Positions 27,184 through 59,240 of a DNA stretch of 64,000 nucleotides are shown here, piece by piece. Position 1 is the stretch's first letter, and the number at the start of each line of letters is the position of its first letter. Location: contig OZ020525.1 of NCBI GenBank assembly GCA_963971425.1, positions 13,894,187-13,958,186 of the forward strand. Reading direction: 5' to 3'. The DNA is from Bryoerythrophyllum caledonicum (Eukaryota > Streptophyta > Bryopsida > Pottiales > Pottiaceae). The notes beneath the pieces are model-generated. The model searched no databases. It saw only the letters and a list, made by a program, of their open reading frames with translations, and was not told where the DNA came from. A program made the position numbers and the translations under genes.

Positions 27184-28196
27184 CTACCATCGAGTGCTAC
27201 CCCCCCTTGCTGAAATCATGGCTTGCATTCGTTTAGGCATGGTTTGAATCAGCCGTTGGAGTTGTTCAAGAGAAATGTCATTCCAAATGACTTGAATGAG
27301 TGCACTCATTTCCTCCTTGTTGCTCGGTCTCTTGTAATAACGAACCTTGTCTTTCATGGTTTTCCAAACGTTCTCAATGGGGTTCAAGTCGGGTGAATTT
27401 GCAGGCCATTGCAATTTCTGCATGCCATGTGCTTGTCTCCAAAGTTCAGAAAGCTTAGCATGATGCACAGGAGCGCCATCTTCCATTAGGAGAAGTTCAT
27501 GTGATGCATCGTGCATGAAATAAAAGCCACAGAGAACACTATCATAGACATGTTTCACAAAAGCAATTGCTGTTCGCTCCCCTTCTGGCAAAAAAACGAG
27601 AGGACTCTTGTCGAAGCCTGTGAATGCTCCCCACACCATAACAGATGTTCTCCCTGATTTGAATGTTGGCGCAAGACATCGGTCAACATATCTTTCATGA
27701 CTTTTTCTCCAAACTCGAATCCGTCGAGAATCTTACCCAATTCAAAAGAACATTCATCGGTCCAGATAATCTTTGACCAATCCTCGACTGTCCAATGCCT
27801 GTAGCTACGAGCAAAGGCTAATCTCTTTTTTCTATGAATTACACTAAGGTAGGGTTTCCTTACAGCTACTCTACTTCCAAATCCAAGTCGTCGGATGTGC
27901 TTGCGGATGGTGTTTCTATGAACTCCAAAAGTCTCTGCAAGTGATACTAAATTTAATCGACGATCTCCATGAATGAAGCGTGCTAGATCCCTAACTGTAC
28001 GATCAGATAGCTTTGGTGGTCGCAGTTTAGGTTTTTGAGTGGTATTCAACCCAAATTTCTTCCACTTTGTCAAAACTGTGGAAACGGTAGAACGAGGCAT
28101 TCCTAGTATTTCTGCAATTCGTCCAGATTTTATCCCACCATTTCTCATTTCTATGATTAGACCCCTCTCATGATTGCTCAATGTTCGTGTGCGCAT
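27184..28196 (-). pseudogene. Tc1 transposase, DD34E, one frameshift (copy 1)
   Basis: A transposase that would cut and paste its element at TA sites. The N-terminus has paired helix-turn-helix motifs (GGIKSGRIAEILGMPRSTVS, then FGVHRNTIRKHIRRLG). The catalytic residues are in WTDECSFELG (Asp), LMEDGAPVHHAK (Asp) and NSPDLNPIENVW (Glu), with exactly 34 residues between the second Asp and the Glu. Two overlapping frames (28196-27555 and 27639-27184) each hold part. The conserved blocks VWRKSHERYVDRC and SVMVWGAF read in the second frame from just after ELG, so one base was lost or gained near 27737. The same lesion is in copy 2. Otherwise the gene looks young. Confidence 0.9.
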
Positions 28197-28815
28197 GATA
28201 ATCTGTAGATTGCAATTAAGTCTATGAGAATTGAAGAAAAAATTGAAAATTTATTGTAACATTAGACCAAAGGAGATATGGATATAAAACTCACCAAGTA
28301 TAGATTTGAAGATGATGTGGAATCGAGAAGAAACGATTGAAGTGGAGTTCAACTGTGAAGAAGCTGAGCTCAGAAGAAGCTGAAACAGCTCATCTTGACT
28401 CATCCATGATCTGAAATGGAGATGAACTGATTTGAAGATGAAGGCTACATGAGGTCAAATGAACTCAACATGCACTCAAAATGAGCTCAACATGCACTCA
28501 AAGTGGTCGGAGCTTCATATGGCTAGATCATGGCTAGAACATATCAATGAAGAAGAAGTCCAGATGGATTATCCCATAAGCATCGGCGCTCTGCAATCGG
28601 ACAATGAAGAAGAAGTCCAGACGGAATATCCCTTAAGCATCGGCGCTCTGCAATCGGACACTTATAAGTACCCCCTCCTCAAGATGTTGGGCACAATTGA
28701 ACAAAATCAGTGAGCATTCAACTTCTGGGTGCAGCCCAACGATGTCGGAAAATGCAGGGCGAGGGAGCAGTGCAAAATTTCAATCACAACGGAAAGTTGA
28801 TTCTAAGTGCATGGG

Positions 28816-29310: not shown

Positions 29311-31355
29311 AAAATTTGCGACCTGGTGCCACTGCTAGACCTACTTCAAAGGCTTTATTCTCCGCCGTCAAATGCATTACCATTGTGGGCTGAAAAAATC
29401 AAAACTCATAACTCCTTCACATGGCCTCGCCGCCACCTCATACTTATCGCCTTTGTTCTCCCGATTGAGGGGTATATCAGGCACACATCCTCAATACAGG
29501 TTTGCTCCCCATGCACTTAGAATCAACTTTCCGTGTGATTGAAATTTTGCACTGCTCCCTCGCCCTGCATTTTCCGACATCGTTGGGCTGCACCCAGAAG
29601 TTGAATGCTCACTGATTTTGTTCAATTGTGCCCAACATCTTGAGGAGGGGGTACTTATAAGTGTCCGATTGCAGAGCGCCGATGCTTAAGGGATATTCCG
29701 TCTGGACTTCTTCTTCATTGTCCGATTGCAGAGCGCCGATGCTTATGGGATAATCCATCTGGACTTCTTCTTCATTGATATGTTCTAGCCATGATCTAGC
29801 CATATGAAGCTCCGACCACTTTGAGTGCATGTTGAGCTCATTTTGAGTGCATGTTGAGTTCATTTGACCTCATGTAGCCTTCATCTTCAAATCAGTTCAT
29901 CTCCATTTCAGATCATGGATGAGTCAAGATGAGCTGTTTCAGCTTCTTCTGAGCTCAGCTTCTTCACAGTTGAACTCCACTTCAATCGTTTCTTCTCGAT
30001 TCCACATCATCTTCAAATCTATACTTGGTGAGTTTTATATCCATATCTCCTTTGGTCTAATGTTACAATAAATTTTCAATTTTTTCTTCAATTCTCATAG
30101 ACTTAATTGCAATCTACAGATTATCATGCGCACACGAACATTGAGCAATCATGAGAGGGGTCTAATCATAGAAATGAGAAATGGTGGGATAAAATCTGGA
30201 CGAATTGCAGAAATACTAGGAATGCCTCGTTCTACCGTTTCCACAGTTTTGACAAAGTGGAAGAAATTTGGGTTGAATACCACTCAAAAACCTAAACTGC
30301 GACCACCAAAGCTATCTGATCGTACAGTTAGGGATCTAGCACGCTTCATTCATGGAGATCGTCGATTAAATTTAGTATCACTTGCAGAGACTTTTGGAGT
30401 TCATAGAAACACCATCCGCAAGCACATCCGACGACTTGGATTTGGAAGTAGAGTAGCTGTAAGGAAACCCTACCTTAGTGTAATTCATAGAAAAAAGAGA
30501 TTAGCCTTTGCTCGTAGCTACAGGCATTGGACAGTCGAGGATTGGTCAAAGATTATCTGGACCGATGAATGTTCTTTTGAATTGGGTAAGATTCTCGACG
30601 GATTCGAGTTTGGAGAAAAAGTCATGAAAGATATGTTGACCGATGTCTTGCGCCAACATTCAAATCAGGGAGAACATCTGTTATGGTGTGGGGAGCATTC
30701 ACAGGCTTCGACAAGAGTCCTCTCGTTTTTTTGCCAGAAGGGGAGCGAACAGCAATTGCTTTTGTGAAACATGTCTATGATAGTGTTCTCTGTGGCTTTT
30801 ATTTCATGCACGATGCATCACATGAACTTCTCCTAATGGAAGATGGCGCTCCTGTGCATCATGCTAAGCTTTCTGAACTTTGGAGACAAGCACATGGCAT
30901 GCAGAAATTGCAATGGCCTGCAAATTCACCCGACTTGAACCCCATTGAGAACGTTTGGAAAACCATGAAAGACAAGGTTCGTTATTACAAGAGACCGAGC
31001 AACAAGGAGGAAATGAGTGCACTCATTCAAGTCATTTGGAATGACATTTCTCTTGAACAACTCCAACGGCTGATTCAAACCATGCCTAAACGAATGCAAG
31101 CCATGATTTCAGCAAGGGGGGGTAGCACTCGATGGTAGGCAGTTTGCACATTCATTGTACAATGCTTCATTATTTTGAAGTTTTCATGTACATATTTCTT
31201 GTGTAAATAAAGTACTCCTCACTAGGAACCCACAGCAACTTTCGGTTTGAAAATCGGACTGTTTTTGAGCATGATACAGCTTTGCCAAGTTCATGAACTT
31301 CCCTGTGCATTACTGCTGCAGTCAAGAATTCGTAAATGAAGTGTACCTGACTGTA
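29309..31355 (+). mobile_element. Tc1-like transposon, copy 2 (inner end missing)
   Basis: An inverted duplicate of copy 1. It has the outer TIR ending at 31353 plus the TA target, but starts at 29309 inside the element, lacking the inner ~110 bp with its own second TIR. It abuts the 10-bp repeats derived from the end of copy 1. Confidence 0.85.
30126..31138 (+). pseudogene. Tc1 transposase, DD34E, same frameshift (copy 2)
   Basis: Identical in translation to copy 1: 213-residue and 151-residue overlapping frames (30126-30767, 30683-31138). The catalytic Asp, Asp and Glu are all present but split by the same frameshift near 30585. The shared lesion means one copy came from the other after the gene was already broken, or that the assembly duplicated one copy. 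Confidence 0.9.
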
Positions 31356-31582: not shown

Positions 31583-32280
31583 TTTTGGTCACCACACCGG
31601 ATCCGGCTAGAATTTGGGGGGAAAGGGGGGCCTCAAGGGGGCCCAATTGGCCCTTTTCGGCTCCGGGCAAAGGCTCAAGAAGGCTCAAGCACTTTTGCTC
31701 CTCAAGATTCCTCTAAGTCCAAAAATATTGCAAATATGTAGATCTTCTAAAAAATTGATAGATTTCAGTACATACCTTATTTTTTGGCCGCCTTGGAAAA
31801 TTCCTCTTCCAATTCTCACACCATGAGTTGCAACTATAACTTCTTTCTTTGATGAACAATACTAACGGGAAAGAAGTTGTCAAAAAACTTCAGTTCTAAA
31901 ATAGTCAAAATCCAGCATTAAAATATTATAAATGATTTGCTGAAATTCGTTTTGAAAATAACTCTCTTGGCCTTCCAGAAATACAACCTCTTAGAGGTTG
32001 TAGGAAATAAGTCTCCTTAAGTTCTGTAAAATACTATTCAAATCTGTCATGTAGGATTCCAACTAGGTTTCTCATCCACGGAAAACACTTTGGGCCACAG
32101 CCCGCATTTTGCTTGATATAAATCCATTTCCCGGGTACCAATTCTTTACTCCAATCAAAACTTGGGAATTCTTTGGGCTCCAACCCAAACCATCTAGATG
32201 TAAACAACCCCTGAGATGGTAAACTTGGTCCATCTCCAGCAACAACAGCTCAACATTAAGCTCACGCATATGTATTCAGA

Positions 32281-32880
32281 GCCCATGGTGAATTGACCCC
32301 TCGTTCCCCCTCATGGGATGAAGAGGGCAGTTGCCCGTGGGATAAATCATCCCTCCGAGCAAGCCATGTAGTGAAACCCTAGTCGGCTGGTACACAAACC
32401 CTCCCCCCTCCTGGCATGTGCCATCCCCGTGCACTCCTCTCGCTTCTCATGATACATTTCTCTACAAAATACCTGCAACGGATATTGCCTCGACACATTT
32501 CTCTATGTAATACCCGTGACGGGTATTGCCTCCTGTGAAGCTTGTGTTTGTAGAAGCACGTGTAGGGTTTGTTTCTATACCTCCCCATGTGTTTTCAAGT
32601 GTTATCCTTTGTGTCCATCTGAGACTAATATTGAGTATATTATTTTCTTTCATGGTTTCTATTCCGCATAGATTGATTCTTCGAGCTCATGTTTTGTGCT
32701 TAGGTATGTTGTCATTGAGAACCAAGGTTTGAATTTTATATTTTTGAGTTTCTTGAGTGATACATTAGTTTCTTTAATAAGTGATTGATTATAGTTTAGG
32801 GTATAAGATATATTTCAATCCTTCCATTTAGTGCGATTTAGGGTTTTTACGGCACAATTTTATGTTTTTTTGGGGGTCCT
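32281..32880 (+). repeat. Left arm of ~0.6-kb inverted repeat
   Basis: Matches the complement of 48770-49345 across nearly the whole length, including GAAGCACGTGTAGGGTTT and TTTCTTTCATGGTTTC. The inner end is near GATTTAGGGTTTTT. Confidence 0.85.
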
Positions 32881-33841: not shown

Positions 33842-34735
33842 CGCGGCCTTGGTGTAGTGGTTTAGGTCATGGCACACCTGTGAGGTGGTTGTGAGTTCAA
33901 GTCCTATTGCCAGCGTGGTGCCTACCACTAAGGTAGAGGCACCCAATTCCTATCACTTAAGCTAGTTCGGGACTCAAATGACATTGTATGTCAAAAACAT
34001 TTATGTACAGAGATGCGGAATTAGGAATGATACTCAACAAATATATTTTCAAATTTAATCACAAAGATTTGGAATTGATATAGAATTTAAAAGCCCAGAA
34101 ACCACCAGAGTCCATATTCAAACTCTAAAGTAGGTGAGATTTGGTGCCCTCCTTTGACCAATGCCAATAAGTGAGAGTAAGTAAAAGAAAGAAGACATGC
34201 CATGGATAACCAACTCATGGAGGGTACCCAATGCCAATCGGCCTTGTTCGACTTTTAAGGCAATGCCACGAATGAGAGTTCAATTGAGGTGGAGCAACCC
34301 ATAATTGCACACATCATGACCCAATGTCGATAATGACTAGTGCTTTCGGATTCTGAGTTATCGGTTTTGGGTCACTTCGTGCGAAACTTCAAGCATTTGC
34401 CATTTTCATGTACCATGCCATGCATACTCTACTGATTAGAATTGAGTGGCCGATCGGAATTGGGTGCCTCTACCTTATAGTCCATCCAATTATGGTGGGA
34501 GGTTCCAAGGCCTTGTTGTATGGGGACCCACAAAGCCCTTGAGGAAAATGACATGTCAGTTGTTTCTAAGGCAATTAGTGTAGGGAAGCACTTAGTGTAA
34601 AAAAGTGTTTACCCTCGAGAGGGGGAAGTAGTTCTATTACACTAGTCTATGTCCCGTGGCCATATGCTTAGTAAAGAGAATGAACAAATACTATATTCAC
34701 GTCGGTCTCCTTCGGACACCAGGATTGCTATCTTG
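33842..34735 (+). mobile_element. tRNA-derived SINE, interrupted by a MITE
   Basis: The 5' part (33842-33930) has GGCCTTGGTGTAGTGG as an A-box region and GGTTGTGAGTTCAAGTCC as a B box. After a nested MITE (33931-34475) the SINE resumes, including AGCACTTAGTGTAAAAAAGTG and the tail from GTTTACCCTCGAGAGGGGG through GTCGGTCTCCTTCGGACACC. A second copy starts at 55302. The tail is shared with the LINE at 55828-59142. Confidence 0.75.
33931..34475. mobile_element. MITE with perfect TIR, TA target, inside the SINE
   Basis: The ends are AGGTAGAGGCACCCAATTCC and its exact complement GGAATTGGGTGCCTCTACCT, flanked by TA (33929-33930 and 34476-34477), as in Stowaway/mariner-type MITEs. It is 545 bp and non-coding. 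Confidence 0.82.
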
Positions 34736-35479
34736 TGAGCGGCGAGCGGCGAGCGTTGAGCACTGAATTTTTTTTAAAAAAATCGTAGTGTTTTTTGTTG
34801 ACTTTGAAAAGGGTCACCTATGGCCGTGGGTTCTATTTAGACTGTGTTGACATATAAAAAATAAATAGAATTTTACGATGACAATGTACTTCGACACATG
34901 GAAGTATGAGTACTTTAGGATTGATTGCAACATTTCAATTGAAATTGGAAGGGACGCTTATGGGTGAGGGTTTAGAGTTTAGGGTGTGGCCACATATCAA
35001 TAGACTAAGAAATTCAATGGAAAAATTTCAAATTATATGGTTTAGGGTGGCAGGCACAATTTAACTGATACCTAATTCATACCCTTATAATACCTAGGTG
35101 ATATCCATGTAATACCTAGGGTATAAAAATTAGATACCATGGAGATACCCGTTTTGTGTGAACCACTCTAAATTGAAATATTCCTATTCTTCGACAGCAA
35201 TTGATTAAAAAATAGCAATGCCTAACATATGAAGATTGTAAACTCAGAGGACATGTAACGAAGTTACAAAGGATATTTATAATGAATCAAATATTTAATC
35301 CATGATAGAATGAAATATTCTCATCACGCATTAATGACATACGCTGTTTTTTGTTAGATATACGTGAAAAGAATGGGATATTGACATGAATGAAGATGAC
35401 CAATGTTGGGAAAATAATGAAGACAACCAATAAGTAATACAGTGATAGTAAAACAAAACAACAAACCAATGCAAAGGAA
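34736..35479. other. AT-rich spacer
   Basis: A short direct repeat of GCGAGCGGC lies just after the SINE (34738-34760). A related inverted copy is at about 48400-48440. TAATACCTAGG occurs twice near 35100. No gene is seen. Confidence 0.4.
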
Positions 35480-35861
35480 TCAAGATCCTGTAGCGAAAAG
35501 GTCACTCGCGTCACTATCGTCCGAAGAACTATCACTACTCTCCGAGCCACTAATGCTGGCCTCCCCATCTATGAAAGGACATGTACGGGACCTACGTGGG
35601 ACTACCGTTGTCGTGAAGGAAATCAGTAGATGTTGTAAAAGGATTAAAAAAGAGGAGAAAGAGAATGGTTAGGGCCGAAGGTAAAGACATGACTAGCGGA
35701 TTCATCCTCAATTACGCAGTCATACTTCACAAAACGGTATCTTTATCTTAGAGGATCTTTTACTGCCTTTTGTCACTAAATCAGGGCTTAGGAGCGTCCA
35801 CCAACTGGTTTTCCTACTGATTTCAGCAGTCCCCTGACCACGCGTGCGCCAGCCGCTCTGA

Positions 35862-35935
35862 CAAGCCAACGAATCGAACCCGTACCGGCGAGGTGCAACG
35901 AAATGCTCAGCCAGCCGAACTGAGCCGCGGTCGAT
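35862..35935 (-). other. tRNA-like module in left TIR
   Basis: On the minus strand GCTCAGTTCGGCTGGCTGAGC (35905-35925) forms a perfect tRNA D-arm and GGGTTCGATTCG (35870-35881) is a B-box/T-loop match at tRNA spacing. The anticodon stem does not pair, so it is a tRNA fossil or a Pol III promoter rather than a functional tRNA. Confidence 0.45.
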
Positions 35936-37174
35936 GACAGTACGTGGGCTCTAATGGTATTTAAGCCATTTTCTAACGCTTCTAAGATCAAAAAACCTAA
36001 ACAGAGTGTTATGGAAGTTTAGTTTATAGTGAAAGTAAGAAATGCTAGTGTTTAGAGTAAAGTTAGATGGAAGAAAGAAGGAGCAGCTACTTGTTGATAT
36101 TGTAGATAAGAGATAAGAGGGAATCTAGGCTTATGTGGGAAGTTATAGGCAAGAATTGGAGGTAAATTGACTTAGGTGACCAAACTTTGGTCAAAAAAGG
36201 AGGCTTAACGAACTCTTTGCATAAGAAGCTATGTACCAAGTTTTACTATTACTGGATCAATTCTCAATAAGATCCATGGCCTCAAACTCCTCTGTCTCTA
36301 ATATCAGCCCCCCATATTTCAACTCTTCATCACTCCTATTCTATTACAGACAAAGATCTCAAAATTTGTACATAAGTCATTCATATAACAAAGAACACTT
36401 CCACAAAAAATTTAATCCTAAAGACTCTATCAATAATCTTCCAAAACGTAGTCTCCTTGTACCAAGTTCTGCCCTTGAATCCCTCTCAAAACCCCGGTTA
36501 CAATTTACCTTATAACTTTTAGATTATAGTCCTAATGGATCTAAGATTTTAACACAATCTTTCTAAGACAATTGTAATACTACCTTCAAAATCTCACTAT
36601 CAAACTCACAATGATCTCGAAACACCACTCCTTCAAAGTATTTATACATTACTGCCTCAATTTCTAAACCCCTCTTTATTCAAATCCGCACCACGGCTTC
36701 ACTACGACTCCGATTGGAGCGTGTGATATATCACTGCAAAGCTAACAACAAGAAGAACAATACTCTTATAACTGACAATGAAATTCTAAAAACTCCCGAT
36801 GAAACAAGCAGAAACCTGAGGCTATTTTTAGTCTTGGGGAGAAGAGCTCGAGCGGGGGGAGAAGGGCAAGAGAGTCAAGAATTAACATCAGCCCACGCCT
36901 TTAAGCCTTCTTCTTTGGCCAAAGTTTGGTCACCTAAGTCAATTTACCTCCAATTCTTGCCCATAACTTCCCACATAAGCCTAGATTCCCTCTTATCTCT
37001 TATCTACAATGTCAACAAGTAGCTGCTCCTTTTTTCTTCCATCTAACTTGACTCTAAACACTAGCATTTCTTACTTTCACTATAAACTAAACTACCATAA
37101 CACTCTGTTTAGGTTTTTTGATCTTAGAAGCGTTAGAAAATGGCTTAAATACATTAGAGCCCATGTATTGTCAT

Positions 37175-37245
37175 CGACCGCGGCTCAGTTCGGCTGGCTG
37201 AGCATTTCGTTGCACCTCGCCGGTCCGGATTCGATTCCTAGGCTT
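37175..37245 (+). other. tRNA-like module in right TIR
   Basis: The mirror copy of the module at 35862-35935, with the same D-arm (37183-37203) and a B-box-like GGATTCGATTCC (37227-37238). Each faces the outer end of the element. Confidence 0.45.
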
Positions 37246-40200
37246 GTCAGAGCGGCTGGCGCACGCGTGGTCAGGGGACTGCTGGAATCAATAGGAAAAC
37301 CAGTTGGTGGACGCTCCTAAGCCCTGAGCTAGTGACAAGAGGCAGTAAAAGATCCTCTAAAATAAAGATGCCGTTTGGTGAAGTATGACTGCGTAATTGA
37401 GGATGAATCCGCTAGTCATGTCTTTACCTTCGGCCCTAACCATTCGCTTTCCCCTCTTTTTTAATCCTTTTACAACATCTACTGATTTCCTTCACGACAC
37501 CGTTTGCAGACGTGGAGGGGAATGTTGTGCAGCCATGGCGTCTGCAACAACGGCATCCCAAGGATTCAAATGGAATCAACGCCTGGGGCTCTTCACCTCC
37601 AACAACAAGGGAGAAAGCACTCCAACATGAGACCGTGACAATGATGCCATCAACGACGAAGGCCGACTGCACAAATTAAAGTCCAGTTTAGAATTTATGC
37701 ATGTGTCAAACTAAAATTGTAAACTGCATTCCAAAAATAAAATCTATTAAAGATAGGACTTACTCACAACGTCTCTTCGGGACAGTCTTCACATTTGGCT
37801 CATCGTCATCAATCTCCAAGAGGTGCTTGCGAGAGCCTTCCGCCACCACCGTTAGCGCAGCTGACTCGACCTCAATGGTGTCAGGGATCAAAGGAAGGAA
37901 GATTTCTTCCACCAACTCTCGGTCCTCCTCTAGTGCCAAAATGTGTCACTTAAGAGCCTTGCAGGCTTTAATAGACGCCCCTTCATGAAAAATAAAACAT
38001 ACGGTGTTAGTACATAAAATCAAGAGTATAACAGATGAAGTGGGTTGATATGAAACATTTCTAACCAGTAGATGTTGTGAGATCCAGAACAATGTCCTCT
38101 TTTTGAGTGCAGACATCAATCAGAGCCTCCATGAGGTTCGTGGACTTCTCTCGCGCACCACGCCATGGTACGTCGCTATCCGCCCTCATGATCAGAGTCT
38201 CCTAAGTAATGAGATTGGTCATGTGACCATCTGAAGAAAGCTGAATCTCATCTCGTTGCAACTCCATCCTATCAAAGAAAGAGAATGGAACCGCTAGATC
38301 CAATTTCCTCATGAAGCACTTCACAAGGAAGCACTTGTGAGTGCGCCCAGGGTGGCCATCACGGAATAGTGGCAGCCCGTTAATGGCAAACCACTTTGTC
38401 TCCTCGACAAAGCCCGCCCAATCGGCCCACGCTACAAGCTCATTGGAGATGAACTTCAAATCAGGGTAGAAAACTATAAGTGGCGCTCCGTCGCGAAGTA
38501 ACGCCCCAACCATCTCAAAGGCCCTGTAAATCCAATGGGATTCTTTCTTACCTCCGTCTGATAATCGGGTTGGAAGTTTGTTCCAAATCGGTACAACGAT
38601 GCCACCGTCAATGTCGGGGACTGGTAAATCCTCTGGAACGTCGAATAGTACCATGTCTGCCAAACCTAGAGTGCAATCCAATGCCTCATGTCGCCGATGT
38701 CGCGAGCCCAAGTGCTCCTTCAAAAACAGGCGAAGCTCCTTCCAAGCTGTGGGTTCGTCATCCTCCACAACGACACTATCAAATAGAGACATGATGGAGA
38801 GGGCACTCTCACACATGACCTTCACAGCAGTAGAAGACTGAGGAAGATTGAATATTGGTATCGAGTACACCGTTTGCGAGGGCTTCACATCAAATGTTGA
38901 AGGGCGACTGCTAGCTGACGGTGAAACGCCCATCGTCAGTGTCACCGCTGGAGGGACAGCAAATCCTCCAAAACCTCCGAGTTGGATAAACAACTTCTGA
39001 GGGCCTTCCTTCGCCACCAAAGCCGCGAACTCCTTGTACCTCTCCTTCGTCTCTTTCTTCTCCTTCTTGGAACTCTCCTTCTCCAGATTAGCAGCCTCCC
39101 TCTCCTCTTCCTTAACTACTGCCTTTGCTGCTTTCTCAGCAGCCTTGGCTTTGGCCTTCTCAGATTGCTCATCAGTAGCTACCAAGGGAGCCGCCAACAA
39201 GGGAAGGACGCTGTGAACTACAGGAGGAACCGCAATGGATTCGCAGGCCACTCGCAGCTGTACCTCGTCTCCAAGGGTTGGATCCACCTCCCGCATCTCC
39301 AAGTACCACGGGCATTGAAGGAGGTGGTGCACAGAAAACCGACGCCTCTGTGAATCTGTGAAGATACACTATGGAGCAGAAGTTTCTATCCACTTTGTGA
39401 AACGGATGGGTAGATCTCCAGCCGCCAAGAATCTTTGGGCCACGAGCACCCTCCAAAAATACCGCATCACAATCCGCTTCAGAGCCTTCTCGCAACCGTC
39501 CTGCGCCATAAACTCCTCGCTCTTCGTGTAGGAGCCCCCCTTCCCGATTTGTATAGATAACACCTTCGTCCACAACGTCATGCTCTTTGCCTCAATCCAT
39601 TTCCCAATGGTGGGGACGGGATTCGGAAGCCCTTCAGTCTTGAGGACAATGTTGTCCTCAAGGAGAATCTCTACGTAGAGCTTCTCAGCCTCTTCTTCTA
39701 GCTGTGAAACGAAATTCTGATAGTTAGAAATTGATCATTGAAATATAGAAAAAAATGTGGTGAATGTCAAGAAAGATTGAACCTTATCCCAGCCCAGAAC
39801 GTTGCCTTGTCAATCCAGCCACGAAGAACCTTATCCGACGCTCGCGACGCGGGGAAGTTATACTCCATCCTGCTACCCTTGCTCATGTTCCACCACCTGC
39901 TCCAGCGCAACTTGAACTTTGCAGCTACCCTAGCCGTGGCGATGAGCTAGAGTTTCTCGGGAGTCATCTCAGACCGCACCTGGTAAACATCAAAGTGACG
40001 ATTCACCTGCCTCACAAAATCAATCATTAGAGTGAAATTTATTAGGCTGGGAGTTAGAAATTCTATATGGTAAGGATTATGTAAATTACACCCTCCCTAC
40101 TTCTTTGAAGAAATCCTCCCCGTTAGCCGGGTTGATAATTGCCAACAACAAAGTGAGCATGGTCTGGCAAGTCGTCTTCTTCTTTTGCACAGCTTCAGTG

Positions 40201-41509
40201 CAACGACTCACCAACTCTGCCGCAATTCCACGCTGATCTTCACTAACACCCGTGACCAAGTTGTCCTTAAATTTTTGAATCTGCTCCTCTTGAACAACAA
40301 TCAGGTCCCTCTGTGGTCAACATAAGCTCCAGATCAGTTTCAATATTTAGAACTGGAGTATGAATAAGAAATCATTGGCCAGTGCAACATGCACAAAGGG
40401 ATCATTATGTACCTCATACATGAGCTTCACAAATGCTTCGAGAGTCATATGATACCATTTTCGTTGTCCCTTCTTTGACCACTCAAGGACACTAACTTCA
40501 TAATCCTCATCGCTGATGAACCCCTTCAACTGCTCAAACTCTAAGAGGCCGAAATGCTGAACACGCTTTAGGTTGTGTGTCAGGTGTTGCACAACGTGAT
40601 CTGATTCTTTTTGCCTACAAAAAAAGAACAATTCAGTTTCATTAAATAATATACCTAGAAATGTAAGCAATTGAAACAAACAAACTTTGAAGTACCTTAG
40701 TTTGTACCTGTTCAAGTCGGTCATGACGTTGAGCAAGATGTGTCGGTTCTCGATAGTCGGCTCGATAACTACGGCTCTCACAGGCACGTGAAAGGACACA
40801 TCAGATGGATGAAGTTGGGAAATCACCTCGGTCCAAGCCATATGGCGATGATTGCCATCCCAGACGAAGAAGAACTTCTCTGAAAACGCATGGTACTCCT
40901 CTTTGGTCTTCAACAGTTCCTCGAACTTCCGGTCCTCTTCAATCCAAAGCTCAGACCACGATGACTTGTCTGCTGGTTGCACCCGCTTCTCCACAAGGGA
41001 GAAACTCTTCACAGACACATAAAAACTAGCAGAACCAGGCCGATAGCCATTGACGAACTCCCCCTTCAATTTCTCCACATCACTACGAAGAGGTAATCTA
41101 ACCTCAATCATGGGCACCATCCGGCAGAGCGGAATGGGGAGATCACCAGCAAAGGAGCAAATGCTGCTCTGTAGGATGTCGTAAGAGGTCCCACGGATGG
41201 ACCTTCGCAAACTTTGAAGTGTTGGAGCGAGCCCATGCTCATCAACAAGTTCAGTGATGCGTGCTTCGTCCTCTATAATCTCAATGTCCCCACGTGAAGA
41301 AGTCGTTGTAGGTTCCATACTCTCAACCTGCAATATGTATGCATGAGAAACCAAATCAACCAATTGCATCTAGCTGAACTAGAAATTGGAATAGAATCAT
41401 GAAAAAAATCAAGATCATGCAATCCCTGATCATCCACGAGACGAGCATTGCCTCACCCACCACCCCAGCCAGTACCAAGAAGCTACTGATATTCTCCAGC
41501 CCGAAGGAC

Positions 41510-41700
41510 CGAGTACAGTCACCCCACCCTCCCCATACACTCTCGTCATCCTCCCCACTCAGTCACTCACCCTCACCTCTCTCAGTCCCCACCCTTTTCA
41601 CCCAGTCCTCACACTCTCCCCTCCTCACAGTCTAGCTCTCCCCAACTTCGCTACGTCCTGGATCCTGATAGAAAGTACAGGAAATGAAATCATGAACAAG
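41510..41700. repeat. Diverged duplication, unit 1 of 2 (intronic)
   Basis: CAGTCCTCACACTCTCCCCT and the following GCTACGTCCT(A/G)GATCCTGAT recur at 42035-42195. Both units lie in the intron between exons 3 and 4 of the methyltransferase pseudogene and are pyrimidine-rich on the plus strand. Confidence 0.8.
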
Positions 41701-41763
41701 AGCTGAAGACCAATAGTCCATGAAAAAAAACACACGCGCGACGAAGAGCAAATGAGCAGGGAG

Positions 41764-41867
41764 AAGAATCTCAAAATTTTACAAAAATCAGTGACCCCTG
41801 AAAATGGCTTTCGAATCCGAAAGCCAAAATCAGGGGTCATTGATTTTGGTAAAAAATCGAGAATCTC
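41764..41867. repeat. ~50-bp arm imperfect hairpin in an intron
   Basis: Arms 41764-41813 and 41818-41867 pair around the loop AATC, with GTGACCCCTGAAAATGGCTT opposite AAGCCAAAATCAGGGGTCA and only scattered mismatches. It may be a very small fold-back element or an RNA-level structure in the pre-mRNA. Confidence 0.8.
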
Positions 41868-42034
41868 CTCCCAGCTTTAGTGGACCATCGCTCGCGCTCT
41901 CTTCAAACCATACAGAATTGCCCAAAGCATATGCACGTGAATCATGCTCACACGAGCCAGCCCCTCCCCATGCAACAGAGACTGCAACGTACACAAGCCT
42001 CACCTCTTGGCACTCCCCACCGAACTCAGACACC

Positions 42035-42195
42035 CCACCCACCCCACTCAGTCTCTCACGTACACCCCACTCACTCCCCACCCTCTCACCCAGTCCTCAC
42101 ACTCTCCCCTCCTCACAGTCTACCTCTCCCAACCCTTGCTACGTCCTAGATCCTGATGGAAAGTACAGGAAATGAGATCTAGAATTGGAGCTAAA
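42035..42195. repeat. Diverged duplication, unit 2 of 2 (intronic)
   Basis: Second copy of the segment at 41510-41700. The hairpin at 41764-41867 lies between the two units. Confidence 0.8.
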
Positions 42196-43370
42196 GACCA
42201 AAGGATCTTATTGACGTACATGAAGTGCATCCATTTTCTCCACTTCCACCTCGGGTGCCCTCGAACTTCCTCGCTTATTCCCCCCGCTCACAGCCTATAG
42301 TGACAGAGATTCTCACATGATTTAGAAATTCCATCACGAGGATGAACCGAAGCACTACACAAACATCACGATTAGGGTTCCTCAGACCTCAGTCACATGT
42401 GAAGAACCGAACCCGACAAGCAAAGTCCGATGCCAAAACTGTGCTCATGCTCACACGACTACCCGATTAGAGCTCATCCAAGAAGGTGCGAGGAACCTCA
42501 CCCTCTAGTGAATCACGATTCCCGACCTAATTCCCGAGGGCCCTTTGGCCGGTTTGGCGTTCAATTACCTAGAAATGATGAGCCAAATCCCATAAGGTGG
42601 CTCACGGCTAAATTACCCTTGTTCTCGGGAGCTTTATGTCCGGCTCAAAACTCATTGACCATAGAGAATCAAGACGGGAAGAGTCGCTCATGTTAGCATT
42701 ATAACTGGTACAGATTGTTGAAAGCATAATCGGATTGTGACATACCTGATTTGGTGGGTCCCACCCTGGTTCCTGGAATTTGTCCACGAGGTTCTCAACG
42801 CCTCTTCGATGAGCCGTTCCAGCCTTACCGGATGCCTTTGATGAGGATCCGTTTCCCACCTATGTGGTTCGTGATTGATATCCCAGGCTCCCATACTCTT
42901 CACTTGAGTCATTATTCTAGCAGTCAGACTGGCCTTTACTGCCTTCAGATCCGTTATCTAATTGCAACGAGGTCTCAGCGGTACTGGATCTTTCATACAT
43001 TTTCCCAGAGTTATCTTTTAAAGAATATGCCTCTTCAAAATGCTCAGGAATACTAACGACGGTGCAAGACTCCTGAATAACAATCCGTGACGCCAGAATC
43101 AGATGAACCTATTGACATCCTTCTATTCAGCCACATGAAATGAAAATCCCAAAACACTAATCATACCTTGATCCTTGATTGGACGGGCTGCGGTCCTTGG
43201 TGGATACTTGCCAAATCCCTAAATCGTTCGCCCGATTCAGATGATTCCACTTCCTGGTTCTGAGCAGCCAGCAATGACTGATGTCTGCGCCGATCCTTTC
43301 GAGCCCGCGTCTGCTTCGGATTGGAGAAATTGGTACTTCGCTTCTTCCGGCCACCTATCTTAGTCATCAT

Positions 43371-44046
43371 CTACAAGATAGCCAAACCACTCATCCGCAC
43401 TCTCATTCAACATCAGAGTCTCCCTATGAATCCAATCAACACAATGCAATATCACTACAGTGCGGTGATAGAGCTCTTCTTCTACTCTATATTGCTTCCG
43501 TTTACACCGGAGACCTACTATTCAATATTAAGCTCTTATCAGATCTAGTTTTTTACACGCTGTCGCAAAGCCCTACCACAGCTTTCCCGTATTAACCTCT
43601 GTTCCATCCGTCAAATACGGGGTACAATTTAAGTTAAGCATCTTCATATTTGAAAAATGACGATCCGATAGATCTAAAGTTGTATTCATTCCGTGGCTAC
43701 AACAAGACAATTAACAATATTGGTAAACGGTAATTGAGCTCACGACTTTCATATTCCTAATTTGTTTCTCAGATTAACTTGTGGCATTGTCCACTGAAGC
43801 CGCCAATAGGCTAGAAAGGAGTAATCCTCTATAGATTAATGTATTTCCGCTGTAATTTCACTCTATCGTGATATATAGATTTCCGCCGTATGTTGCCCTT
43901 TATAAGATAATATATTTCCGCTATAATCAAGTCTTTACCAGTTCAGTATTTGAACGAGGGTCGCAAGCTAGTTCAATCTCTTTTTTGCAATTCAGTTGTC
44001 AATGCACCCCACCCTCACCTAACTCCGCTTCAAATAGTCTCTGTGC
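43371..44046. promoter_or_regulatory. Divergent intergenic region between methyltransferase and transposase genes
   Basis: The two genes point away from each other with 676 bp between start codons, so both promoters must lie here. TATTTCCGC-type words recur (43848, 43910 region). I cannot name specific binding sites. Confidence 0.35.
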
Positions 44047-47000
44047 ATGGCGTCTCTTACTTCTCATCAAGGCGGTGCTCCACTTGTCGTGCCCATTGGC
44101 GACAATGGCACAGTTTGTATCTCCGAGTCATTGCTATGTGTTCGTTTTGGTTATCGGGCTGGCACAGTCCACATTGAACAAGAGGTCTATAATAGCGTAG
44201 GTAATCATGAGCAGTCCATTTATCAAGTGAAAGACAGTGACGCGGTTGGATATTTTTGGAGCTTGTATTGTGGTTCATTCAAAGTATTTGGTGTTACAGA
44301 TGTTCAGTTCGCTGCTCATGCATCAATAGCCTTCATGACTCCTCCGGGCGATTCTGGTGATACTGAACTCGTGCCCGATTTAGGCACTAGGTCTAACCCA
44401 AGCGTCCATATTCTTAGCGATACAGAGGAAGATGAACTATCTGATGTGAACCTTGCTGAGTCAAAGATCCCATGGACCTCGTCTCATCAATTAGCAACTC
44501 GTACTAGTACTACCCCAGTTCCATCATACGCTCAAGCGTCTCCGTCTTATTCTTCAGGGAAGCCCCCAGTTTATCCTGGCTCGCGCAACGTCAGAAGCAT
44601 ACTAATTCATGTCCGGCATACCTGTAATAGGAAAGGGTCTAGGTCTGAGTTGTCTAGAATTGATATCGATAGTTTTGATTTGAAACAGGTTAAATATTTG
44701 CCTCCAAAGTATGATGGGGACGTAGTATTTGAACTTCCAACACTCCCGGAGGGTATTTCCCCCCAGTACGGAGGGGGCCTAGATGGGATGAGTAAACAAC
44801 ACGATGGTCACACGTGGTGCAAGACCATGACTACAAATATTCAAGAACGATTTTGGTCTTACGTACCGGAAATCTGTATGTACGGGGCATCTACAGTGCC
44901 CTAATATCACTTGTGATTAAAAGTCACGAAACGGTGGGCGCTCGAATCAGACCGAGTTGAGCGGATTCGCGTTCACTCCATTTTCACTGAATGGAGCACC
45001 ATCCGAGAAATCTACGCTCTCATGTAAAGTTTGCCAAACCCCTCCAATTTGTCTTGCGCTTTGTGATGCACGTATATACTATGTGACATCTATCGATCCC
45101 GATCGGACACGCGCTGCAATTCAATTGGGTCATCATCTTCATCCTATCTCGAAAGGTGTAGATCAAGATGCCATGGACGTCATGTACGATTGCGTAGCAA
45201 AAGAAGTCCAACGTACGCCCAAGGCTACTAATTCAGCAATTGTCATGGCTACGAGTAAGAATTTCCTCTCGGACTACCTCATCCGTCCACAATCGAAGTT
45301 GCCCAACCTTGAAGGAGCATCTTTGGATGCTGTCCTTGATCAATTCGAGACTCTTTCGTCTCCGAATATACGGAATCTAGTGTCCACGTGCAAGAAGTTC
45401 TATTGTGGTGGGAAGGGTGTAATGGACAACATCATGGAGCTGAAGGAGTCGTCGAAATTCGTGTTCATCCACGAAAACAAGTTTCCCGGCCAGTCTCAAG
45501 GTAAAGTATTCCTTTTCAAAATGTCTGTCGATCGATGTGGAAGTGGGGTAGACCTTGTTAGGCGTATGTAACCCGGAAATGACCTTGAAGATTGTTGGAT
45601 GATGTTTGATCATGTCAAACGAGTCAAGGATTGGACTACCATGGCATGTCATGTGTACGACAGCAAGTATTGTAAAGTAATGACAATTGCCATGTGCGAT
45701 ATGCAATCCGAGGATGCTCAAGCGCAACAGTTGTTCTGGGAGAATCTAAATGATACAATGAGACAACATGGCCTAGAAGACGTTAACTTCAAAGGCTTCA
45801 TGGCTGACAGTGCTGGTGCGAATTGGCATGCCGTTCGACGAGTTTATGGCAGCGGCGACAAGGACAAGCCCATGGATAATAGGGAACGCACATGCTTATT
45901 TCATTGGACAAAGTGTCTTCAGCGTGCGACCTCTAGAAGTATTCTTCCAGGCTTCCAAGAGCAACACATTGCCCTATGCAAAATCTGGAAAAATGCGAAG
46001 ATCCATGACGAGGCTGAAGCTCAGTACAATGTCATTCGAGCGTGATGGTTGCCCTCTGGTGCCACTACCAAAATCGGACGTCGTGCTCTTGAGGATTGGA
46101 TGGCATTCTGGCACTTCCGTTATCGACAATGGGGCGGCGCAATGCAGCTTGTAAGTGGTCTTCATGCTCCATATAGTTTACATGCGATTAGATTCTTAAA
46201 GAGTAATCAACCTATATCTAATGACGATTGTTGCGTTTCCTCAGGATCTCACTCTAGACGAGAGGGCTGACATGCCTTCCTGCAACCTTGCCGAAACTGT
46301 CCACAACCGTTGGCTCCAACAATCCGGAAACACAATGACGTGTCTATACGCAGCAACCGTAGACGACCTTATCTGTGCTTTCATGCAGATTACTTCGTAT
46401 CGAGCATGGTTGAAGGGCGGCGCGTCCGGAAAAGGTCCGGACAGAGGTACGCTTCGGTTGCGGTCCGCACAACGTTTGGGTGATCCTAAACTCATAGCTG
46501 ATGCTATTAGGAACTTCCCCGGAGCTGAGGACTTACTAACCAGGACATGCGGCTTAGAAGGTGCGGAGGTTTTCGGATCCACGAAGCGCAAGCTTGACAT
46601 GCCACCCGGGTCGTCCCACGATTCGCACAGGTCCGATACGGTGAACTATTCAATTCCCCGTGATGGTAAAAGGGTGACTCGGGCTCGCATCGAAGAGGCC
46701 CTTGGCGGACACGACTCTGGTGTCCAACATACAACCTCCGTTCTTGAGACGGACTGTGATCCGTCTAAGTGGCACATTGCTCGGCTCCCCAAAAAGTCTG
46801 CTCGAAAATGCCAAGCATTGCAGGCTCACACTGGTGAGCCCTGCAACACCAAAGTTGTACGTGGAAGTCATGGAACTCCTGCCCCCACCTATTCGGGTAT
46901 GAAGAAGGATTACAGATCGCCCCGTAATGTTAATGCGGAGTTCTGGTTTTGTCCAGATGATGTAGGCCGCTGTGTAAAGGGGTCGAAGAAAGCGTTTGTG

Positions 47001-47612
47001 ATGGATTGGCCATCAGTTCCAATATCGCGGCCTGTGAAACTTGGCACTAATTTGACTGTGCATGAGGTTTTAGCATTGGAGGAAGAAAGTTTCCAATTGC
47101 AACAGCGAGGAGCTCTTTCACCACGACGACAATTCCAAGTGTCTATGGACATGCCTCTTCCGCGATCTCACTTCCCCATTCCAGCAAATCCAAATTCTCA
47201 CCACAGTTTTCGGAATGGCTACGCGATTCGTAGAACAACAGATGCTCCCACAATTGACCAACGCAACAAGTGGTCAAGCGCAGCTCTTATGAATAACTGC
47301 TACGTCTCGAATTTGTTTGCCATACCGTATCCGGGATGGGGATGCGTTATCACTCTTGATACGGGGAAGGACAAGTCCTATTGCGTCATGTTTACGGACC
47401 TCCCAGGATGTTCATGCCTAGATTTTTTGAAGATGCAATCCGAAGCGTTGGGAAAGAAGGGGCAATGGAAGTATTGCAAGCATGTGTATTACATCTTATG
47501 TTACCTATGTAAGATGGACTACAAAGAGGACATGTTCATGCATGCTCCAAGCTACAGCTTTAACGAAGTTATGCGCATTCTCGAGCTTGCTAACATCACT
47601 AAACGAGCGTGA
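44047..47612 (+). pseudogene. MULE-like transposase with SWIM zinc finger, decayed
   Basis: A Mutator-like transposase relative. Pieces in order: 44047-44904, with HDGHTWCKTMTTNIQERF near its end; 44957-45571, with TRAAIQLGHHLHPISKG; 45599-46045, with the DDE-like core KDWTTMACHVYD, FKGFMADSAGAN and CLFHWTKCLQR (the C-x2-H feature of MULE transposases); and, after a 94-bp GT-AG intron (46150-46243), the C-terminal part to 47612. The C-terminus carries a SWIM finger, CSC...YCKH, in the segment ending at VYYILCYLCKMD. Breaks: TAA at 44902, a frame change before 44957, TAA at 45569 and TGA at 46045. The gene diverges from the methyltransferase gene and may be the transposase of the same element. 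Confidence 0.72.
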
Positions 47613-48769
47613 GGAAGGCGTTCAAGTCGTCGCAACCCGCAATTGATTAATATTTCTTGGCTGCTCAAGTGAAGCATCTTCTATACATGCTCAGTTCGTA
47701 CCCGATTTCATGACTGTAGTTGATGGTCATGAATTCAATTAATATATTATTATATTTCGTTATATTATTCTGAGCAGTAGAATCCCATACTTAGCGTGTT
47801 CCACACTTTGAAGGTGACGATTTTATACATAAGTCATTAGAAATGGGGACTGCCAATATTGTGGGAATTGTCTTAGCGATTTGTGCAAATGATATGCATG
47901 GAACGTAAAGGTGATTTTCGTGCATTTCGTAGTTAACAGTTAATACCCATGTATTTCGAATGTCTCTCCGATTCAGTACCAGTGAAATATCCACTTAATA
48001 CCTAGGTGATACCCGTTGTATATGAAGATCAATATTATCATAAATTAGCAAATACTGACCAAAATTGTCTGCTTCGTATCATATTCTACCAGGACGCCTA
48101 AACCCCATACCTAAGTAAATATGTGCTTTACATTCTAATATGGCACTTTACAAATGTAGGACCTTCAGAGAAAAAAATGGTGACACACCTTTAAACTAAA
48201 ACAGGGAACTCTAAAAGACCGAAATAAAGAAAAAAACACGCAATTTTGCAGTATACCACGGCTATAGGGTATTTTCTAAAATTAGACATTTTTGAAAATT
48301 TTGTCATCAAAATTTGATGATCTGCTGAAAAAACCAGGAATTTCACCTTTTTCGCAAAAAAATGACAAAAAAATTCCAGATTTTAGGATTTTTTATGCTC
48401 ACCACTCGCCGCTCGTTGCTCACCGCTCACAAGATAGCATCGCTGCTTCGGACACCGGCGTTCTTCTTTATCTCCTAGCAATACCCTTCATGAAGATGAC
48501 AACTAAAAAACATTCCCTTCTTTTCAAGCAAAATACTTGTCAAGCTACAAGAATATGAAACAAAACGTCTCTAGTTTCTTATCACAATATCCGTTATAAA
48601 AGAAAAAGGTCTGAGTATATGTACATGAGTGCATTTAAAAGGCAATACTCGTGACGCGCAGTAAAAGTTCTCTAAAATGTTCCAAGGAGCTTTTACATAC
48701 CTATCGTGCACAGAAGCAAATTTAAGAATTAAGTCACTATCTACATCTATGATGTATTTAGCATAAAGT
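47613..48769. other. AT-rich spacer with short repeat remnants
   Basis: No gene. 48395-48470 contains CTCGCCGCTCGTTGCTCACC and CTTCGGACACCGGCGTTCTT, which look like fragments of the SINE tail and of the G-rich repeat seen near 34735. Confidence 0.4.
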
Positions 48770-49345
48770 TGCGCCAAAAAACCCTAAGTCACACTAAATG
48801 GAATGATTGAAATATGTCTCATGCCCTAAACTATAAACAATCACTTATTGAAGAAACTAATGTATCACTCAAGAAACTCAAAAATATAATACTTAAACCC
48901 TAGTATTCAATGACAACATACCTAAGCACAAAAGATGAGCTCGAAGGATCAATCTATGTGGAATGGAAACCATGAAAGAAAATAATACAGTCAATATTAG
49001 TGTCAGATGGACCCAAAGGATAGCACTTGAGAACACATGGGGAGGTATAGAAAGAAACCCTACACGTGCTTCTACCCACACAAGCTTCTCAGGAGGCAAT
49101 ACCCCTCACAAGTACTTCGTACAGAAATGTGTCGCAGCAATACGCGTAACAGGTATTTCGTAGAGAAATGTGTCACGACGGGCGAGAGGAATGCACAAGC
49201 CATGGCACATGCCGGGAGGGGGGAGGATTTGTGTGCTAGCGGGCTGGGATTTCACCACTTAACTGGCAGGGAGGGATGATTCATCCCATCGGCAACTGCC
49301 CCTTCATCCCACAAGGGGGAACGAGGTGGTCAGTTCGCCCTGGGC
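48770..49345 (-). repeat. Right arm of ~0.6-kb inverted repeat
   Basis: Inverted copy of 32281-32880. Its outer end reads GTCAGTTCGCCCTGGGC, the same terminus as the right end of the MULE at 2522-3089. Confidence 0.85.
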
Positions 49346-55665: not shown

Positions 55666-55827
55666 GGTGCCTATTACCGTAGTCCACCCAACTATGACCT
55701 CGTTGTATGGGTATCCAAAAAGCCCTCGGGGGGATGACATGTTGATTGTCTCTAAGGGACCTAGTGTAAGGAAGCACTTAGTGTAGAAAAGTGTTTACCC
55801 TGGAAAGGAGGAAGTAGTTCTATTACA

Positions 55828-56092
55828 AAGAAGAAGAAGAAGAAGAAGAAGAAGAAGAAGAAGAAGAAGAAGAAGAAGAAGAAGAAGAAGAAGAAGAAGA
55901 AGAAGAAGAAGAAGAAGAAGAAGAAGAAGAAGAAGAAGAAGAAGAAGAAGAAGAAGAAGAAGAAGAAGAAGAAGAAGAAGAAGAAGAAGAAGAAGAAGAA
56001 GAAGAAGAAGAAGAAGAAGAAGAAGAAGAAGAAGAAGAAGAAGAAGAAGAAGAAGAAGAAGAAGAACAACAACAACAACAACAACAACAACA
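55828..56092. repeat. (GAA)n then (AAC)n microsatellite, LINE 3' tail
   Basis: About 79 GAA units (55828-56065) are followed by about 9 AAC units to 56092. It lies exactly between the TSD and the LINE 3' end, so it is the expanded tail of the LINE. Long homopolymer frames in translation (poly-F, poly-L) are artefacts of it. Confidence 0.93.
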
Positions 56093-56315
56093 CCGGTCTC
56101 CGAAGGGGGGCCGGCGTGAGTGAAGTGTCCGTTCATTCCACCACTAAGTCCATGCCCACCGGGCATGGGTTGGTAGTATGGAACCACTTCCCCCTTTCGA
56201 GGGTAGACACTATGTCCCCGGTATCAAGTAACCAATATCAAAGGACCCTAGGTTCCAAAAAGTCCCTAAAAGGGTGGAGGGCAAGTATGGTGAGTATGCA
56301 AATGCAGGTGTAGCT

Positions 56316-59142: not shown

Positions 59143-59240
59143 TAGTTCTATTACACTACCCTATGATAGGCTTAGTGAAAAGAATGAACAAACACTGTAT
59201 TCATGCCGGTCTCGATGTAGACCAGAGTTCTTCTTCCTCT

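Follow-up and report, generated by a model that had tools for sequence, protein, structure and literature searches.

Transposons that carry, beside their transposase, a gene joining a ParB-like region to a DNA methyltransferase-like domain are already known from algae. The available part of one account describes a ParB-methyltransferase accessory protein encoded by the Ectocarpus transposon Sola1-1_Ec32 and also mentions green and red algal cases (PMC12477816). Here, a gene of this accessory class is reported from the moss Bryoerythrophyllum caledonicum, where it occupies positions 43370 to 35480 on the minus strand of a 64,000-nucleotide stretch of contig OZ020525.1 (assembly GCA_963971425.1, positions 13,894,187 to 13,958,186), hereafter the window, in whose coordinates all positions are given. 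The gene belongs to a multicopy DNA transposon, in which it is the second gene and is transcribed divergently; short terminal inverted repeats and 10-bp target duplications mark the element, and what is new is that long palindromes centred on CGGATCCG lie in intron 2 of the gene. In the literature searched, of which coverage was partial, a gene of this kind is not mentioned for any element with 10-bp duplications, nor are altered methyltransferase motifs like those described below or intron palindromes.

The closest counterpart, the Sola1-1_Ec32 protein, is likewise encoded on the strand opposite the transposase in a very large DNA transposon and likewise combines a ParB-like with an N4/N6-type methyltransferase domain, at 1,104 amino acids as compared with about 1,300 in the moss (PMC12477816). 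Compared by description, the elements themselves differ, that of Ectocarpus being a Sola1 transposon whereas the moss element has 10-bp duplications and, by eye, a SWIM-like finger, and is putatively Mutator-like. Bacterial and phage fusions of a ParB-CTPase fold with an N6_N4 methyltransferase are similar in their domain pairing, their link to mobile elements, and their P-motif arginine, to which an arginine of the moss protein may correspond (PMC12704722); unlike these, the moss gene is eukaryotic and spliced, its methyltransferase motifs are altered, and its ParB-like region is recognized by motif only. DNMT-carrying elements of charophytes and dinoflagellates also represent mobile elements with a methyltransferase, in algae, but they are retrotransposons and their enzymes are of the C5-cytosine type (PMC5890265). 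Finally, the VANDAL transposons of Arabidopsis encode a second protein, VANC, whose target motifs often lie in tandem repeats and vary between related elements (PMC5735166). The likeness to VANDAL/VANC is one of analogy only, and the palindromic core of the moss element has no counterpart in that description.

Transposon structure and copy number

The transposon copy in the window, 13.7 kb long including a nested 1.9-kb insertion, spans positions 34720 to 48445, its ends having been placed by comparison of the window with two near-identical copies, on C11 and C14, and of these two with one another. The two copies are 96.5-98.0% identical across a stretch with a sharp end and, like the window copy, have terminal inverted repeats of the form CAG...CTATCTTGTGAGCGG, which a repeat-pair scan and the comparison of copies place at 34720-34760 (left) and 48405-48445 (right) in the window. 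Target duplications of 10 bp were found in all three copies opened, namely CATGAAAATA and CATATTTAAC at the C11 and C14 copies and GTGTCCGAAG in the window, where, read on the minus strand, its first copy lies at 48446-48455 and its second at 34710-34719. This length agrees with the range of 8-11 bp that the available part of PMC6446971 reports for Mutator-like elements. Lengths of the element were 12.9, 13.7 (window), and 14.2 kb in the three copies with located ends. A pair of 586-nt inverted repeats had at first been read as the terminal repeats; no target duplication accompanied them, and the ends were moved to 34720 and 48445 by the comparison of copies. These repeats (32281-32864 and 48762-49345, 86% identical) flank the transposon outside its ends, and related sequence also lies beyond the C11 copy.

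The exon encoding the ParB-like region was matched at E 0.001 or better at a minimum of 120 places in the 437-Mb, 894-contig assembly, a lower bound in that 119 of 2,663 first-look candidates were scored. An earlier note on this DNA, made from its letters and open reading frames, had read the locus as a gene that has lived in a eukaryotic genome; that it is a plain host gene is not supported. Nine exons and a low ratio of nonsynonymous to synonymous substitution (dN/dS) would suit a host gene lying near transposons by chance; set against them, the number of places in one genome and the common element ends and 10-bp duplications that enclose both the gene and the transposase leave this reading a next to negligible likelihood.

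The partner gene, a divergent transposase-like gene with frame breaks and stops, lies at 44047-47612 on the plus strand, as determined from relatives and a genome search, and stands head-to-head with the ParB-methyltransferase-like gene. It has 54 relatives in the protein collection (43-86% identity) and at least 90 genome places, again a lower bound with 90 of 4,227 candidates scored. Thirteen aligned relatives have D, H, and W positions in common that, in our reading, are of the kind known from DDE transposases, and a SWIM-like CxCx..CxH can be recognized by eye; a Pfam search with these 13 homologues gave no MULE or SWIM match and one to Transposase_mut at E 0.18. On such features the element is classed putatively as Mutator-like. 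A divergent transposase was found within 15 kb of 54 of the 120 ParB-exon places and of 34 of the best 37, as compared with a mean of 0.245 and a maximum of 3 divergent pairs in 1000 runs of random placement; one pair, on C15, has another arrangement. The transposase start lies just beyond exon 1 in nine of the 11 fetched copies that reach 700 nt past that exon and is absent from there in L009 and L021. No scored partner accompanies 37 of the 90 transposase places; the single one of these examined proved to have a partner gene, diverged and piecewise 45-66% identical. At this place the idea of transposase subfamilies without the partner gene was not borne out.

Palindromes in intron 2

Intron 2 (41328-42745, minus strand), which is bounded by GT..AG at the same position in 10 of the 11 copies tested, contains one palindrome in the window and often several in relatives. 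That of the window, located by palindrome scan and RNA folding at 41755-41876 on the minus strand, has the core TTTCGGATTCGAAA, one base off CGGATCCG. Palindromes with at least 20 of 25 pairs occur in 15 of the 16 introns examined, 11 of which have more than one, while mononucleotide shuffles (20 each) reached 15-17 pairs; this count excludes six loci in which exon 2 was not usable. In one scan, seven of eight loci had long palindromes, all of which were inside intron 2 and none outside it. Within the intron-2 intervals of 22 loci, 76.9 kb in all, there are 70 exact copies of CGGATCCG, as compared with two in the remaining 143.6 kb of these loci; the interval was taken as the 5 kb upstream of exon 3 if exon 2 was not found, and both of the outside occurrences are in L022, upstream of the exon 3 of a second copy. 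These sites are not independent, since many of the loci are close copies. Single further copies of the core are present in the window, at position 31598, and in 27 kb of flanking loci. At the scale of the genome, the 16-mer CTTTCGGATCCGAAAG, one form of the palindrome, was found 357 times, as compared with none for its reversed control and about 0.09 expected by composition. For 45 of the 50 sites listed, a scored ParB exon lies no more than 6 kb downstream; the zone so defined makes up 0.09% of C1 and C2.

Independent evidence comes from the arms of the palindromes, which differ between at least four subfamilies (GGCTTT/AAAGCC, ACCACCTT/AAGGTGGT, ACCCT/AGGGT, and ATGGGTTT/AAACCCAT), each set of arms being palindromic around the same CGGATCCG core, which contains GATC and GGATCC. 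In six of 13 usable copies (L010, L012, L013, L015, L016, and L021), Tandem Repeats Finder (TRF) reported tandem repeats of 483-523 bp within intron 2. Other copies had units of 126 bp repeated 8.9 times (L034), of 140 and 220 bp (L027), or of 64 bp repeated 15 times (L025), unrelated-looking short-period repeats (L009), or short ones only (L019 and L024); L023 was excluded from this comparison, its interval beginning inside a partial exon 2. TRF found no tandem repeat in intron 2 of the window, and a 126-nt repeat pair lies 488 nt apart in the window. A dyad core that stays constant and recurs in non-coding DNA of the element looks, by analogy with the parS sites of bacterial ParB and with the targets of VANC (PMC5735166), like a binding site for a dimer. 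The natural candidate for a binder here is the protein encoded by the very gene in which the palindromes lie.

The ParB/Srx-like region and the methyltransferase-like domain

The earlier note had proposed a fusion of a ParB/Srx-like domain, marked by DGNHRHMAW, with a beta-class DNA methyltransferase. The motif is indeed present in exon 3, at 40859-40833, and the longer VWDGNHRHMAW, together with a downstream DLN(R/K), appears ParB/Srx-like by eye. DGNHR is found in six of the eight rows of alignment A2, the exceptions (L019 and L025) carrying stops, and its arginine may correspond to the P-motif arginine of the ParB-CTPase fold. Membership of the family, by comparison, found no support in profile methods, the results of which are given below, and for that reason the region is labelled here as ParB-like by motif. 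Scans of viral contigs and searches of phage and plasmid proteins gave no relative of the ParB-like part, and the phage protein search reached phage methylases only at E 0.1 or worse.

The proposed link between the C-terminal part and the beta-class N6/N4 DNA methyltransferases fared better and, from the sequence matches, is taken as real. PF01555 was matched in nine of ten aligned members (best 2.1e-7); for the window copy the score rose from 15.3 to 23.4 bits once exons 7 and 8 were joined, and the domain, at 23.4-24.1 bits, stays below the PF01555 cut-off of 26.7. The top three sequence matches among solved structures were to DpnA (two entries) and CcrM, at E 0.0016-0.0021. As predicted, and as in CcrM and DpnA, the order of motifs is that of the beta class, with the motif-IV-like segment ahead of the motif-I-like one in the alignments: FDVPED lies within 38657-38628 and VLDLTTSTG at the end of exon 7 (DLTTST at about 38087-38067, minus strand).

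Canonical beta-class motifs are (D/N/S)PP(Y/F/W) for catalysis and FxGxG for the cofactor, and in known beta-class enzymes these two serve the target base and the cofactor, respectively. Where CcrM and DpnA are characterized by DPPY and FxGxG, the proteins described here have DVPE and TASTG. In all covering rows the catalytic motif is replaced by D(V/I)(P/H)E and the cofactor motif by D(L/I)T(A/T)S(T/I), the last G of the latter spanning a splice junction and thus being invisible in single-exon rows; the DpnA row of the solved-structure alignment reads DPFMGSG. Because every covering relative has the altered motifs, including those from other sources that are 38-65% identical, they represent a feature of the family rather than decay of the window copy. 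With both motifs changed in this way, methylation of adenine N6 or cytosine N4, which the earlier note had anticipated, is doubtful as an ordinary activity of the predicted protein.

The same replacements weigh against active self-methylation, in which a working N6-adenine or N4-cytosine enzyme would mark the element, perhaps at the GATC or GGATCC of the palindrome. The relation to CcrM- and DpnA-type enzymes, the occurrence of both sites within the palindrome core, and purifying selection that also covers exons 7 and 8 (four pairs, dN/dS 0.15-0.27) would all accord with such an enzyme, and self-modification was suggested for the Ectocarpus protein in the available part of PMC12477816; with D(V/I)(P/H)E in place of DPPY and TxSx in place of FxGxG in the covering relatives, we consider it quite unlikely. 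The domain may instead have lost ordinary catalysis under continued selection, which bears on predictions of N6-methyladenine and N4-methylcytosine (6mA/4mC) from genes of this kind.

Open copies and selection

Open paralogues, of the kind that the earlier note had proposed to look for, exist in this genome: in five of the 20 fetched copies (L011, L012, L013, L015, and L016) all nine exon stretches are free of stops. Exon 1, and mostly exon 2 as well, was not found within the 10 kb fetched for L014, L018, L020, L022, L026, and L028. Diverged copies are under purifying selection, with dN/dS of 0.10-0.23 over exons 3-8 in all pairs whose dS exceeds 0.3; a large number of these dS values are near saturation. 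In closer pairs the ratio is 0.15-0.47, including 0.47 between the window copy and its nearest relative, L009, and 0.39 between the window copy and L021. Transposons do capture genes, and the gene could be regarded as a passenger, a captured bacterial or phage ParB-methyltransferase gene without benefit whose intron-2 repeats reflect neutral satellite growth; an open reading of all exons was not established for 15 of the 20 copies fetched, six of them having no exon 1 or 2 in the 10 kb fetched. The low ratios across diverged copies, the retention of the gene beside the transposase, and a palindrome core common to subfamilies whose repeat units otherwise differ speak against this, and we hold a passenger gene to be very improbable.

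A candidate role in self-recognition

We propose, giving the idea an even chance, that the predicted protein is a self-recognition factor that would bind the intron-2 palindromes and mark or shield the DNA of the element. Its ParB-like region, probably dimeric and perhaps with nucleotide, would bind palindromes in the gene's own intron, and the bound protein would mark or shield element DNA, with the methyltransferase-like domain serving to bind DNA or a cofactor, or else catalysing an altered reaction. The outcome would be that host silencing is countered or the transposase helped, in a manner like that of ParB-parS and of VANC with its tandem motifs; the window copy would no longer be capable of such self-recognition. 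More tentatively, and at somewhat below an even chance, the element may possess a parS-like system in a eukaryotic transposon, the CGGATCCG palindromes in the gene's own intron serving as a private self-tag of each subfamily that co-varies with the protein. For a class of accessory proteins without an established function, a candidate recognition site makes self-recognition directly testable.

Several results weigh against this proposal. No ParB family match was obtained in Pfam, NCBIfam, or PHROGs, the best chance match being to LBR_tudor (1/8, E 0.0014), and PF02195 had no matches in the genome, though 11 of 14 controls were detected. An hhalign comparison of the profile with six bacterial ParB proteins scored 17, as compared with up to 27 for column shuffles, and single-sequence structure models were poor, the ParB-like region having a predicted local distance difference test (pLDDT) value of 47 and no Foldseek match at E 0.001. 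The profile of alignment A3, which lacks most of the exon-8 part, returned a designed protein only and no known methyltransferase structure. Among the loci, L027 has short palindromes only, the exact core is absent from the intron interval in six of 22 (the window, L009, L020, L022, L023, and L025), and five of the 16-mer sites, of 50 listed, have no scored copy nearby.

In addition, the palindromes may act as RNA or arise as by-products of repeat dynamics. Folded as RNA, the window palindrome is a strong hairpin (-76.6 kcal/mol, z -13), and this, like the confinement of long palindromes to intron 2 in the loci that have them, is what would be seen if hairpins fed or decoyed small-RNA silencing, or aided the splicing of a long intron, the role of the protein being separate. 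A hairpin requires pairing arms, yet it is the CGGATCCG centre, in the position of the loop, that is constant while the arms change, and RNA hairpins would presumably promote, rather than prevent, silencing of the element. A role as RNA, the main alternative, is in our view unlikely.

Gene model and decay of the window copy

The exon-chain coordinates and strand given in the earlier note agree with the gene model, as does its conclusion that this is a spliced eukaryotic gene, since the exon chain is common to relatives: where visible, the exons of those in the same genome agree in kind and order. Ten exons had been predicted; the spliced chain stands and nine exons were found, the ninth being split by a nested element, and the tenth probably corresponds to the tail at 35605-35480 that this element cuts off. 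On the minus strand, the gene model, together with relatives (exons 1, 2, 4-7, and 9), an alignment (exon 3), or Pfam (exons 7 and 8), places exon 1, encoding a basic N-terminus, at 43167-43370; exon 2, with two in-frame stops, at 42746-43108; exon 3, with the ParB/Srx-like region, at 40696-41327; exon 4 at 40413-40614; exon 5 at 40101-40310; and exon 6, with one in-frame stop and an AT donor where most relatives compared have GT, at 39788-40006. Exon 7 (38066-39701) encodes a linker and the methyltransferase-like domain and has two in-frame stops, and exon 8 (37764-37980), with one, encodes the end of that domain. The first half of exon 9 (37503-37666) has an in-frame stop at 37578 that is absent from the three relatives compared, and the second half (35480-35605) encodes an acidic C-terminal tail matching the uninterrupted tail of L012, L016, and L021, in which the last exon continues without the 37578 stop and closes with an acidic tail. 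Between the halves, a repeat scan identified a nested palindromic (foldback-type) element (35606-37502) with arms of about 600 nt that are 95-97% complementary. A 4-bp ACGG repeat is present at the ends of this foldback-like element.

Exons 1-9, read to the stop at 37578 with X at stops, give 1,258 residues in a model whose exon 6 extends five bases too far. The longest stop-free run is 388 codons, whereas none of 200 dinucleotide shuffles of 37500-43400 exceeded 223, and the modelled frames contain 3 and 4 stops in 611 and 648 codons, where shuffles (500 each) had means of 27 and 28 and minima of 13 and 16; both measures are outside the shuffle range and go beyond chance. Splicing as modelled is inferred from junctions and homologues: GT..AG is present at intron 4 in 18 of 20 copies tested and at intron 5 in 20 of 20, and at intron 1 in six of 13, the donor of L012 there being non-GT, and the homologue P0057 has a read-through of the intron exactly at the exon 7/8 junction. 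A search with exon 7 returned eight relatives; a search with the whole protein, under length limits that excluded exon-sized relatives, returned no match.

The earlier expectation that the exons yield one protein does not apply to this copy, which is dead: it has seven in-frame stops (five TAG and two TGA), AT in place of GT after exon 6, and the 1.9-kb insertion in its last exon. Loss of the splice donor after exon 6 accounts for an apparent frame error between this exon and exon 7. Six of the stop sites were compared with relatives, which have mostly ordinary residues there (at one site mostly glutamate); at two of these sites a stop is also found in one relative. Given these residues, neither a changed genetic code nor C-to-T decay alone was retained as the cause of the stops.

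Neighbouring features of the window

Genes near the transposon include one with a kinase and, by eye, leucine-rich repeats, and one of the Xan_ur_permease type. A single open reading frame at 57206-59155 on the minus strand, in an apparent retroelement, combines an RNase H domain (E 3.7e-12) with PCIF1_WW (39.2 bits, cut-off 31.1), which we take to be the family of an mRNA-cap adenine methyltransferase. Two pairs of direct repeats, 33837-33904/55302-55369 and 34548-34641/55734-55827, are 87-88% alike, in the same order and about 21 kb apart, the first of them resembling by eye a tRNA-derived short interspersed nuclear element (SINE). Pairs of Tc1/mariner-type transposase open reading frames at 27184-28250 (minus strand) and 30072-31138 (plus strand) have identical translations and are inverted with a run of N between them, perhaps as an assembly artefact. 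A long low-complexity run of lysine codons lies at 55765-56313 on the plus strand.

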